From a virus: a DNA stretch of 24,800 bases. The position numbers and the translations under genes were made by a program. The DNA is taken from positions 1-24,800 of IMG/VR virus record IMGVR_UViG_3300033144_001501; one strand, written 5' to 3'. Position 1 is the stretch's first letter. Each line of letters begins with the position of its first letter. The notes beneath the pieces are model-generated. The model was not told the DNA's origin. It was given only the letters and a program-made list of their open reading frames with translations, and made no database searches. Positions 9,747 to 24,800 of the stretch are shown piece by piece.

Positions 9747-10775
9747 TTATTCGTGAGATTTATTAATAAATTGTGTTAGTTGTTTCACATCTCTTGGGTT
9801 ACCAATGAATACACTAGCGGCATCAACTGCTATGTCAACAATCTTGTCATGACGACTTTCATGTATTTCACAAGAAACATCAAGAAATGAGTTTATAGGT
9901 TTAGGCTTTCTGTAATAAACAATTTCAATATCAGTCGAAGCAAAAGTATTTCGATGATGTAATAAAAGACGATTATCAGTAAGTTCTGTTATAGGGCTAT
10001 CCTCTTTGGTAGTCTGGTACGGATTAGCAATGAATGCTGATACGAATTGACTATCAATAAGACGAGTCTCCTTCTTTAAGTTATTACCTACTAAAGCGGC
10101 ATATTGCTCATGAGGTTGTAAAGTAAAGGAAGCAGACGTAGTTAAAGCGCCTGTAATAACCATTGTCACTTTATCGAGATTATCTTTATCACTAACAAAG
10201 ATGAAATTATTTGGTTTATAAATGTCTCCATATTTCTCCCAATAAACCTTCACGTCAGTTTCCTTTCGATTAGTTTCATAAATGGCAAAATTATGTATCA
10301 AAAACTTAGAGTCATTAGTTCCCATAACAGGGAACTTAGGATAGTCGCTTCTCTGAGCCAGTAGAAGGTCAGGAGTTGCATCATTGTACTCTAAAGTCCA
10401 TTTAAAATCCTGGTAAACATCAGTGATAGTAGTCTCGTCGTCAAATGGTAAATAAGCAATATACAAACTTGCACTCTCTTTAGTTAAATCAAGCCCGTTG
10501 CAATCATAGATTAGCTTGCTATTAGCTGTAATGAAATCAAAGAAATCATAAGGTAGGACAGAGTATAACACGCTATCTTCAAGAACATACATAGGTACTG
10601 TCTTCTTAGTAACTAGTGTTTGTAAATCGTCATAACGCTTGTTAGTAACTTGATGACCTTCTTGTTTGCGATTACCTTCATTAGGCGGAAGAGTAGTTCT
10701 AAAAAACTTATGCATAGCATAGTTCAAAAGAATATCTTTCTCAATCATCTGTACGTGCATCTCTTTCCAAAACAT
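9747..10775 (-). CDS. Conserved neck/connector-type structural protein
   Basis: This is a 342-aa protein. Its N-terminal region contains ILLNYAMHKFFRTTLPP, then N-K-R-Y-D-D-L-Q-T-L-V, and then SVLPYDFFDFI. This order (LN-x-A-x-x-x-F, a short variable stretch, x-x-x-D-D-L-x-x-L-V, L-P-x-D-F) is widespread in structural genes of crAss-like and other Bacteroidota phages. A beta-rich centre and a C-terminal helical region follow (KIVDIAVDAASVFIGNPRDV). The gene is 6 nt from the 352-aa gene upstream and 12 nt from the 315-aa gene downstream. It carries one copy of the oriented motif at 10356. Role as a head-to-tail connector component is inferred. Confidence 0.65.
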   Translation of the reverse strand: MFWKEMHVQMIEKDILLNYAMHKFFRTTLPPNEGNRKQEGHQVTNKRYDDLQTLVTKKTVPMYVLEDSVLYSVLPYDFFDFITANSKLIYDCNGLDLTKESASLYIAYLPFDDETTITDVYQDFKWTLEYNDATPDLLLAQRSDYPKFPVMGTNDSKFLIHNFAIYETNRKETDVKVYWEKYGDIYKPNNFIFVSDKDNLDKVTMVITGALTTSASFTLQPHEQYAALVGNNLKKETRLIDSQFVSAFIANPYQTTKEDSPITELTDNRLLLHHRNTFASTDIEIVYYRKPKPINSFLDVSCEIHESRHDKIVDIAVDAASVFIGNPRDVKQLTQFINKSHE

Positions 10776-20080: not shown

Positions 20081-21100
20081 TTAATAATTTAAAGGTTTAC
20101 GTCTAGGACGTTTAGAAATAGATTGTAAAGCAAGTAACCTGTCAATGTGCTCAGGCATATACTTAATATTATAAAACTTAGGTTCATGATGATATTCCTC
20201 AGTACCTTTCATCTCAATCCGTAAATGACATAGTATAAGACTTTTACATTTTAATCCCCATAGTTCACATATGCGAGCATATAAACTAAGCTGTAATGTA
20301 TAGATAGAACCTTTACACTTTTGTAAATCTTGTATAGGAGCATGCATCCTATCATCCTTCTTAACCCACTTATCAGTTTTCACTTTATCTGTTCGTCCAG
20401 CGTTCCATACCTTTTCGTAATAACCGCTCTCAAACTTTAACGGGTCTTTGTTAGTCTTCCAGTCAACAATAACAAATTCTTTATTCTCATTAACTGCTAT
20501 GATATCAATCATACCACTAACCTTATGTTTATATGAGTAGACTCTTTTCTCTGCAAAGAGAGTATAACCTTTCTCAATAAGTTTCTTAAGTACTTTAAGT
20601 ACTGCTGGGTGTGTATCCGCTAAAGCACTTTTATCTAAAGCTTCTACATCTTTGAGAGCAAGTTTGAAACTAGGTAATTCATGAATTGCAAGAGAATGGT
20701 TTACAGTCTTCTTATCATATATTTGATTAACAGAGTTCTCTAAATAATCATGCTCACGATTTCCACGCTCACAAGCTTGAGCTGCATTCTCATCCCATTC
20801 CTTATTAACAAGACCAGGTGACTTCTTAAATGTTACAATACCTGTCTTAAGTTCTTCGATAGTATAGTACCGACCTTCGTCAGTCCTACTTGTTTTAAAG
20901 AATACACGAAGTGGGATATCAGGTCTCGGTTTACCGAACATACCAAACTCTTGGTCAGCTGCTCGATAAAATGCCCAAAACTCTTTAGGGAATGTAGGAG
21001 TATACTTTCCTATAAGTTGGGTAGCACTAGTATAAACATTACCTTCATCGTCTGTGTATCTATGATGTTCGGCATTAAAGAATATCTGAACCTTTTTCAT
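20081..21100 (-). CDS. PD-(D/E)XK (RecB-like) nuclease
   Basis: This is a 339-aa predicted nuclease that cuts or trims DNA with metal-ion catalysis. The core is visible: an acidic residue in LFAEKRVYS (Glu184), the strand GMIDIIA with Asp199, then VIVDWKTNKD giving the D-x-K pair Asp213/Lys215, and the downstream helix YTLQLSLYARI with the Gln/Tyr of RecB-family nucleases. An N-terminal helix has RGNREHDYLE (His117), also typical of this group. A related nuclease is commonly found near the packaging genes of crAss-like phages. Start ATG overlaps the previous stop by four bases (ATGA). Likely roles are recombination, replication or DNA processing for packaging. Confidence 0.85.
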   Translation of the reverse strand: MKKVQIFFNAEHHRYTDDEGNVYTSATQLIGKYTPTFPKEFWAFYRAADQEFGMFGKPRPDIPLRVFFKTSRTDEGRYYTIEELKTGIVTFKKSPGLVNKEWDENAAQACERGNREHDYLENSVNQIYDKKTVNHSLAIHELPSFKLALKDVEALDKSALADTHPAVLKVLKKLIEKGYTLFAEKRVYSYKHKVSGMIDIIAVNENKEFVIVDWKTNKDPLKFESGYYEKVWNAGRTDKVKTDKWVKKDDRMHAPIQDLQKCKGSIYTLQLSLYARICELWGLKCKSLILCHLRIEMKGTEEYHHEPKFYNIKYMPEHIDRLLALQSISKRPRRKPLNY

Positions 21101-23576: not shown

Positions 23577-23810
23577 ACTATGTATAAGATTTAGTGTAAT
23601 GGCTTGCGCCTTATTCGTTAGTACAAAGATAATCCTTTAGTATCACTTCTACAACTATTAACGTACTATATAGTATAATAGTTTCAATAAATATCACTAT
23701 TTGTGGTATTAACATTGACTTATTGCGCTATGTAATATAGTATGTACTATATATGCGTTAGTATTATTTAGTACATTAGTTAGTACATTAGTTAGTAGAT
23801 GATTGATTTG
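23577..23810 (-). promoter_or_regulatory. Left half of the divergent control region: host-type promoter plus operator-like repeats
   Basis: On the minus strand TATCTTTG (23624-23631) matches the Bacteroides -7 box TAnnTTTG, with GTTG 20 nt upstream (23652-23655) near the -33 TTTG box. This would start transcription about 40 nt before the 154-aa gene. Further right lie a perfect palindrome TACTATATAGTA (23664-23675), an inverted repeat ATATAGTA-TG-TACTATAT (23735-23752) and four TTAGTA units (23758, 23768, 23780, 23792) spaced 10, 12 and 12 bp. The last units form a perfect tandem 12-bp repeat TTAGTACATTAG. These look like binding sites for a regulator. Confidence 0.6.
23768..23797. repeat. 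Tandem 12-bp direct repeat
   Basis: TTAGTACATTAG occurs twice in direct tandem (23768-23779 and 23780-23791), followed by a third partial unit TTAGTA. The helical-turn spacing places the same bases on nearly the same DNA face, as for cooperative protein binding. Confidence 0.8.
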
Positions 23811-23853
23811 AGCCAGTAGGAGATGACAGTTCATCCCATCGACTCTACTGGCT
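23811..23853. other. Inverted pair of the oriented motif forming a hairpin
   Basis: AGCCAGTAG (23811-23819) and its exact reverse complement CTACTGGCT (23845-23853) enclose a smaller GATGA/TCATC hairpin (23822-23835). The left copy has the orientation of the other five copies in the leftward genes; the right copy faces the rightward region. No U-run follows on either strand, so this is not a usual terminator. Confidence 0.75.
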
Positions 23854-23957: not shown

Positions 23958-24101
23958 ATGATTACAGAAATTATTGTAAGTTTAATAGAGTATATTATGC
24001 TGAAGCATGTTAACCCTGGCACCGGAGGTAAGCCACCATGTGAAAGTGACTATTATTCTTCTCGTATTAGAAAGATTAGTAGTCATATAGACAGAGAATA
24101 G
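23958..24101 (+). CDS. Possible 47-aa small protein
   Basis: An ATG-to-TAG frame of 47 codons lies on the plus strand. It starts MITEIIVSLIEYIMLKHVNP, then has GTGGKPPCESDYYSSRI and ends SSHIDRE. The first 15 residues could form a hydrophobic helix and the rest is polar. A weak AGAGAA lies about 12 nt before the ATG. It would be a single-gene unit with a promoter-like region ahead and an intrinsic terminator 32 nt after the stop. A GC-rich segment inside it also folds as RNA, so it could be a noncoding RNA instead. No homologue recognised. Confidence 0.4.
   Translation: MITEIIVSLIEYIMLKHVNPGTGGKPPCESDYYSSRIRKISSHIDRE
24017..24035 (+). other. Compact GC-rich RNA hairpin inside the 47-codon frame
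   Basis: TGGCACC pairs with GGT-AA-GCCA across a three-base GGA loop (24017-24035), with an AA bulge. It sits in a short GC-rich island in otherwise very AT-rich DNA, which hints that RNA structure is under selection here. Confidence 0.4.
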
Positions 24102-24133
24102 ATTTTTGCTTTATTTAGGTAAGTTTTGGTAAG

Positions 24134-24166
24134 CCTAGTTGGACAGATGTTCGACTAGGTATTTTT
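24134..24166 (+). terminator. Intrinsic terminator of the small rightward unit
   Basis: CCTAGTTG (24134-24141) pairs with CGACTAGG (24152-24159), one G-U pair included, across a 10-nt loop and is followed by TATTTTT. It ends the unit that carries the 47-codon frame. Confidence 0.75.
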
Positions 24167-24187: not shown

Positions 24188-24262
24188 TGATATAATGTCC
24201 CGTCCCTAGAGTAAGTATTGGGGTTACCCTAATCAGATGTAATGTTTGGTTAGGGATTTTTT
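24188..24262 (+). ncRNA. Candidate small RNA unit with extended -10 promoter and terminator
   Basis: TGATATAAT (24188-24196) is an extended -10 box. About 7 nt later a transcript would begin, run about 60 nt with CCC and GGGG segments that could pair in alternative ways, and end at a terminator (CCCTAATC with GGTTAGGG, 24227-24234 and 24248-24255, then six T). No ORF fits. No clear -35 box or Bacteroides -33 box is seen, so the unit is plausible but not certain. Confidence 0.4.
24227..24262 (+). terminator. Intrinsic terminator, plus strand
   Basis: CCCTAATC pairs with GGTTAGGG (eight pairs, one wobble) across a 13-nt loop and is followed by TTTTTT at 24257-24262. Confidence 0.75.
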
Positions 24263-24453
24263 ATGTTATGTTGGGAATGTTTGATAGATGATTAGTACGT
24301 TTATGTTTAATATGTTTTGTTGATTAGTTGTTTAAATGATTAATTGTATGTTGTGTAAGAGGATATGTTTTGTTTGGTAAGACTTGGAAAAATTTATTTT
24401 AAAATTTATTTTATGGGTTTGTAGGATACGTGCGGTTACCACCATTTTAAAAA
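24263..24453. other. C-depleted, T/G-rich stretch with AT-rich tandem repeat
   Basis: From 24263 to about 24387 the plus strand has only about two C in 125 bases but many G and T, a very strong strand bias. It ends in a tandem AAATTTATTTT repeat (about 24390-24412). No ORF longer than about ten codons is open on the plus strand; a minus-strand frame across this and the hairpin is a low-complexity by-product. The composition would favour strand opening or an RNA-DNA hybrid. Confidence 0.5.
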
Positions 24454-24559
24454 CAAAACAAAATAAATTCAAAACAAATACCCCCCCACTTATTTGAAAA
24501 GAAACAAGTTTCTCTTCAGATAAGTGAGGCGATATTTGTTTTGAATTTATTTTGTTTTG
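24454..24559. repeat. Long near-perfect inverted repeat (106-nt hairpin)
   Basis: The outer arms (24454-24480 and 24533-24559) are 27 bp and perfectly complementary, made of A, C and T on one strand. Inside, 24487-24505 pairs with 24508-24526 (17 Watson-Crick pairs, one G-U, one mismatch) around a two-base AA loop. Between the two stems lie CCCCCC on the left and AGGCGA on the right, which can form a few further C-G pairs. It is too long for a normal terminator and could be a cruciform in DNA or a long stem in RNA. Confidence 0.85.
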
Positions 24560-24713
24560 CTGCTGCAATAGTAGTTTATCAGCGTAGCGCTAGCATTGTG
24601 TATGTATTTTATGTTATGTATGCCTTAATATTTCTATTTTACGTGTATGCCTTAAAGTACAATTTGCCTTATCATTAATAACACAAAATCAATAGAGCTT
24701 AAATCCATAAACA
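24560..24713. other. AT-rich spacer with short repeats, no gene seen
   Basis: No convincing ORF. It contains a palindrome TAGCGCTA just after the long hairpin and a direct repeat GTATGCCTTAA (24618-24628 and 24645-24655), with a third shorter GCCTTA at 24666. Probably part of the same control region. Confidence 0.45.
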
Positions 24714-24800
24714 ATGTACATCACTATCATTAACATGATAGCAATGTACATCAACCCTCAACTTAGGTTTGATATGTACATTTCATTACTCAAAACTTAT
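24714..24800. repeat. 30-bp-periodic ATGTACAT array, cut by the window end
   Basis: The palindrome ATGTACAT begins at 24714, 24744 and 24774, exactly 30 bp apart. Each full 22-bp interval holds its own dyad: a perfect CTATCAT-TAAC-ATGATAG in the first and an imperfect one (24752-24771) in the second. The first two copies share ATGTACATCA. The array may continue beyond the window. Confidence 0.7.

Follow-up and report, generated by a model that had tools for sequence, protein, structure and literature searches.

In crAss-like phages, a virion RNA polymerase transcribes the early genes (PMC10136315; PMC8375218), and a literature search found no described early promoters, origins or virion RNA polymerase DNA signals for these phages. 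The promoters of the N4-type virion RNA polymerase (vRNAP) are small hairpins with a 3-base loop and a GC-rich heptamer centered at -11 (PMC4496689). Template switching, in turn, is a documented maker of hairpins (PMC8794818, PMC7202029). The present analysis concerns a long palindrome in a control region that, like its equivalents in p-crAssphage, crAss001, phi14:2 and FpV4, lies at the boundary of the late (terminase, portal, capsid) and early modules. The stretch of DNA analyzed (the window), an IMG/VR record of 24.8 kb, is part of the genome of an uncultivated crAss-like phage. Its TerL, portal and MCP genes, all three on the - strand, have PHROG matches with E values of 1e-90 to 1e-92, and the Crassvirales-type terminase, portal and capsid genes occur in order together with an IHF-like gene, as in the order Crassvirales and its relatives. 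TerL identity to named Crassvirales is 24-31%, and judged by this marker the window's clade is not close to any genus among the TerL matches.

Five relatives were recovered in viral-contig searches, namely L002 (98%) and then L003, L004, L005 and L023 (TerL 64-76%); the homologous control region is retained only in L003 and L004, both of which are distant (TerL 73-76%). Searches with the IHF-like and 154-aa proteins returned only three relatives, all among those already recovered, and a terminase search of genome contigs gave no match. L004 (IMGVR_UViG_3300030372_004928) is 80,496 bp long and its portal gene is apparently split across the contig ends, so it is near complete; in it, the control region divides the late module from an early module on the opposite strand. 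The giant virion RNA polymerase gene lies outside the window, and a 5367-aa ORF is present at the expected place in L004. At 80 kb, this near-complete genome is small for the order, and its clade is possibly a new family-level lineage.

In the window, the palindrome sits in a gene-poor region, 1.2 kb or more in length, with the leftward late module before it and the rightward early side after it. The contig stops 241 nt past it, and the early genes of this phage lie beyond the contig end. That the hairpin marks a boundary had been proposed in the first-pass annotation, and the relatives bear this out, placing it in the early/late control region at which the modules of a crAss-like phage diverge. 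The features of this region are the following.

23624..23654, - strand: late promoter of the Bacteroidetes type, TTG-N20-TATCTTTG, some 50 nt ahead of the 154-aa late gene
23812..23852, no strand: inverted repeat GCCAGTAG-N25-CTACTGGC, in the window and 3/3 relatives, with a spacer of 25-36
24133..24160, + strand: second rightward intrinsic terminator, from the terminator scan
24227..24255, + strand: rightward intrinsic terminator, from the same scan, with counterparts in L003 and L004
24454..24559, no strand: imperfect palindrome (hairpin), arms 24454-24505 and 24508-24559, AA loop 24506-24507
24462..24505, + strand: left arm, ancestral by comparison with L003 (80% identity, BLAST E 1.3e-4)
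24475..24494, + strand: conserved C-run element CAAATACCCCCCCACTTATT, with AAATACCCCCC(C)AC kept at the equivalent position of L003 and L004, matching FpV4 CCCYCACTYATT
24508..24559, - strand: right arm, apparently derived, an inverted copy of the left arm in which C7 reads TCGCCTC on the - strand; unmatched in L003 at that place
24703..24776, + strand: early-side motif ATCCATAAAC...AACCCTCAACTTAGGTTTGAT, with counterparts upstream of early genes (three in L004, two in L003)

From the late to the early side, the conserved order is late promoter, GCCAGTAG/CTACTGGC inverted repeat, rightward terminator, C-run element and repeated early-side motif. The late promoter pattern, TTG-N20-TAnnTTTG ahead of the first late gene, has an equal layout in L003, L004 and, by eye, L005, and the inverted repeat stands about 150-200 nt upstream of it. 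When the GCCAGTAG palindrome was used as bait, 113 stretches were returned; among the loci read, the AATACCCCC element was found only in known relatives. The rightward terminator reads CCCTAATC...TTAGGG-T6. The early-side motif, TACTTAAAATACCATAAAC...ACCTTCGACTTAGGTTTAG, has three copies in L004, two in L003 and one in the window, and is a candidate early promoter of this clade as far as its sequence and placement indicate.

The palindrome comprises two arms that are complementary at 47 of 52 positions. A perfect outer stem of 27 bp (24454-24480 paired with 24533-24559) is followed by C7 (24481-24487) opposite GAGGCGA (24526-24532), with three mismatches, and then by an inner stem of 18 positions with two. 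The first-pass annotation had described a 106-nt near-perfect hairpin at these coordinates with a two-base loop and a 27-bp perfect outer stem, all of which was confirmed; its inner stem exists but is one position shorter than the 19 given. Apart from an overlapping TTG-started ORF that was judged meaningless, the region is gene-free, as had been noted, and the C7 tract is the sole C6+/G6+ run within the 24.8 kb. Folded as DNA, the hairpin reaches -34 kcal/mol on the + strand and -39.6 on the - strand (z = -13.6 and -15.4), with equally stable structures in 0/200 shuffles; overall, the folding lay 11-15 standard deviations beyond shuffles. The 27-bp stem is the longest exact stem of the window, the runner-up being 15. 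In 100 Markov-simulated versions of the intergenic region, perfect stems reached at most 14, with the longest per version averaging 9.5. The pairing is thus far beyond chance, as the earlier remark that it is rarely kept by chance had anticipated.

The two arms appear to have different histories. When positions 24256-24800 were searched with blastn against the relatives, two significant islands were found in L003, 24462-24505 (80%) and 24622-24679 (78%), separated by 160 nt in the window and by 156 nt in L003, which leaves no net insertion; in L004 the match is restricted to the C-run. The right arm had no match at that place in L003, the one relative with a significant match. Because the left arm is matched in L003, the right arm is not and the spacing is kept, the left arm appears to be ancestral and the right arm an in-place reverse-complement copy of it. 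The comparison identifies the left arm with its C-run as the old, conserved part: AAATACCCCCC(C)AC is kept in 3/3 control regions (window, L003 and L004) at equal place and spacing, and the C-run is also the sole C6+/G6+ run in the 80 kb of L004. The 27-bp stem, by contrast, is absent from L003 and L004, which have only short local hairpins just past the C-run; an exact search for the 27-nt arm found 0 matches in the viral collection, and blastn searches of phages and plasmids gave none. Judged from these relatives, the long pairing is peculiar to the window's lineage, and conservation of the pairing itself, whose lack in relatives the first-pass annotation had named as refuting its reading, was not supported, the retained parts being the C-run element and a short neighboring hairpin.

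This arrangement is that of a quasi-palindrome, in which one arm is homologous to a relative and the other is its reverse-complement copy, with no net change in length. A template switch during replication could have produced, in situ, a reversed copy of about 50 nt of the left arm, with the right arm replacing local sequence rather than adding to it. The likeness to described template-switch quasi-palindromes extends to an imperfect inverted repeat with one ancestral arm and the other newly copied in place without net insertion (PMC8794818, PMC7202029), whereas here the ancestral state is deduced from one distant relative. If this is true, the hairpin would be a naturally occurring case of inverted copying, in place, within a control site. 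Arms of 52 bp are, as far as is known, long for events of this kind.

C-rich motifs are found in the corresponding regions of other crAss-like phages. In FpV4, a Flavobacterium phage of the crAss-like group that has been cultivated, CCCYCACTYATT (a pattern picked after viewing the window and FpV4) occurs in exactly five perfect copies, and all five are on the early strand and upstream of early genes; downstream of two of them, ORFs of 56 and 87 codons start after 92 and 59 nt. The C-run element resembles the FpV4 early-strand motif, AAAACCCTCACTTATT, in its CCCYCACTYATT core, in the TTCAAAA ahead of some copies and in its position in the divergent region on the early strand. It differs in that the five FpV4 copies are direct and none is within a long hairpin, whereas the window has one intact and one decayed inverted copy. 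In phi14:2, only two near copies were found in 100 kb, AATTCCCCCCTCACTTATG and ATCATCCCCCACTCTTT, which form an outward-pointing pair in a 270-bp divergent region and precede the flanking start codons by about 70 and 90 nt. A position matrix built from the FpV4 sites alone ranked the hairpin arms 1st and 2nd in the window (16.0 and 12.7), the right arm being no independent match; a score of 16.0 was reached in 4/30 window-sized Markov copies and in 1/200 intergenic-sized ones. The link between the FpV4 motif and the hairpin arms is therefore best regarded as suggestive.

The divergent regions of 12 crAss-like phages together contain 16 C5+/G5+ runs against 1.7 expected, about ninefold, or 11 against 1.2 when the window's clade is left aside; the comparison DNA is mostly coding, and the effect size is uncertain. 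C5 runs are absent from the divergent regions of crAss001, p-crAss and cr3_1. p-crAss and cr11_1 have another C-rich element, ACYCCCCGTRGAGGA, arranged in inverted pairs. The window shares with these control regions the C/G runs seen in most of them and the inverted C-rich pairs of phi14:2, p-crAss and cr11_1, but the paired elements in those phages are about 85-125 bp apart and form no single continuous stem. The placement expected of an early promoter or leader, namely on the early strand, ahead of early genes, in several phages, is clear in FpV4 and consistent in phi14:2; the window's clade has one conserved C-run copy upstream of the early side, the early genes being past the contig end. 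A sequence element that recurs across the divergent regions of several crAss-like families and is linked with the early strand in the cultivated FpV4 offers a concrete candidate signal.

Collectively, these comparisons lead us to favor, tentatively, a reading in which the hairpin is an inverted pair of a C-rich cis-element in a divergent control region, its right arm made by template switching, and the element controls early, perhaps also late, transcription. The C-run probably belongs to a poorly described gene-control site. The C-rich element would act as a DNA-level control site, and either a phage factor or the virion RNA polymerase may recognize it, while the long stem would be an elaboration confined to this lineage, with or without added function. 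The hairpin itself, if it acts at all, probably acts as DNA, because it stands some 850 nt upstream of the late promoter and past the rightward terminator.

A neutral origin, in which template switching recently left the palindrome as a scar in spacer DNA and added no function to that of the C-run already there, is unlikely but deserves weight: the pairing is missing in the relatives, there is no net insertion and no record in the viral collection carries the arm. Long palindromes are unstable. What speaks against a mere scar is that the 27-bp outer stem is perfect and that 3/5 arm mismatches cluster within 7/52 positions, the duplicated G-run, which hints at some constraint (p = 0.014, in a test chosen post hoc); these mismatches leave just one intact C-run in the palindrome.

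A replication origin or primer site, with the C-run as template of a stable rG:dC hybrid or the hairpin as marker of single-strand initiation, seems improbable. The divergent boundary, the AT-rich surroundings, the TAGTACAATATA repeats of L003 and the adjacent conserved inverted repeat would suit an origin. The first-pass annotation had proposed cumulative GC skew as a check, and the minimum in the near-complete L004 does fall here, but the skew follows the gene strand everywhere in that genome and so does not discriminate; moreover, the related FpV4 motif is scattered upstream of separate early genes, which fits promoters or leaders better. Doubtful as well is a bolder version of the transcriptional reading, in which C5-C7 with a CACTTATT-like sequence would be a virion RNA polymerase or early regulator site conserved across families and the palindrome a cruciform serving as a bidirectional early/late switch.

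It is still less probable that the hairpin works as a regulatory RNA, with a transcript, most likely leftward, folding into the 106-nt stem to control stability or translation. The - strand does fold better as RNA (-61.6 vs -50.9 kcal/mol), because three mismatches turn into G-U pairs, but the position of the hairpin, about 850 nt upstream of the late promoter and between the rightward terminator and the early-side motif, probably puts it outside the main transcripts. No Rfam family was matched at gathering score; an Rfam search of the hairpin gave only sub-threshold miRNA-type matches, caused by the long stem.

It is very improbable that the palindrome extrudes into a cruciform and serves the giant crAss-like virion RNA polymerase as a promoter hairpin of the N4 kind. 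The parallel, a works-like comparison only, is that a phage equipped with a virion RNA polymerase has an inverted repeat in its early control region: this polymerase reads the early genes of crAss-like phages (PMC10136315), N4 vRNAP requires extruded hairpins (PMC4496689), and short hairpins follow the C-run in L003 and L004. However, N4 hairpins are small, with a 3-base loop and conserved sequences within 18 bases, whereas the window's stem is far longer and is unconserved as a stem; compared by inspection, stem and loop do not fit the N4 type (PMC4496689), the sequence does not match and the polymerases are of different superfamilies. An assembly or amplification artefact, for which the single metagenomic contig and the 241 nt to its end could speak, is unlikely to the point of being hardly credible, because the sequence on either side matches L003 at nearly equal spacing (160 vs 156), and the arms differ at 5 positions; a contig chimera is likewise unlikely.

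Other classes were rejected. The hairpin is not an intrinsic terminator: the scan calls those at 24133 and 24227 but passes over the hairpin, whose stem is AT-rich and has no T tail, in keeping with the earlier view that the pairing exceeds terminator needs. A mobile palindromic (MITE-like) or insertion element is contradicted by the colinear spacing with L003 and by the lack of a second copy in the window, the viral collection and plasmids. The recombination or resolution site once suggested found no support, and neither did a protelomerase telomere site, the center being an unpaired AA with unrelated conserved sequence running on both sides.

Several further observations concern the repeats and small ORFs of these regions. 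A 47-codon rightward ORF (MITEIIVSLIEYIMLKHVNPGTGG...) at 23960-24103, followed by the two terminators, was not seen in L003 or L004. At about 20327-20390 of the L003 contig, an AT-rich part of the control region carries three iteron-like direct repeats, TAGTACAATATA, 24 nt apart. Copies of the early-side motif, ATACCATAAAC...ACCTTCGACTTAGGTTTAG, are at 10256, 10585 and 11056 of the L004 contig and at 20924 and 22832 of the L003 contig; the motif is in noncoding DNA on the early strand, has a TAnnTTTG-like box and resembles the FpV4 early motif. In p-crAss (BK010471, L041), ACCCCCCGTAGAGGATG repeats at 2980, 3405, 10523, 10726, 20494, 30928, 35023 and 37732 are scattered in both orientations, mostly within late genes, and ACCCCCCGTAGAGGATG also forms inverted pairs in the divergent regions of p-crAss and cr11_1 (L158).
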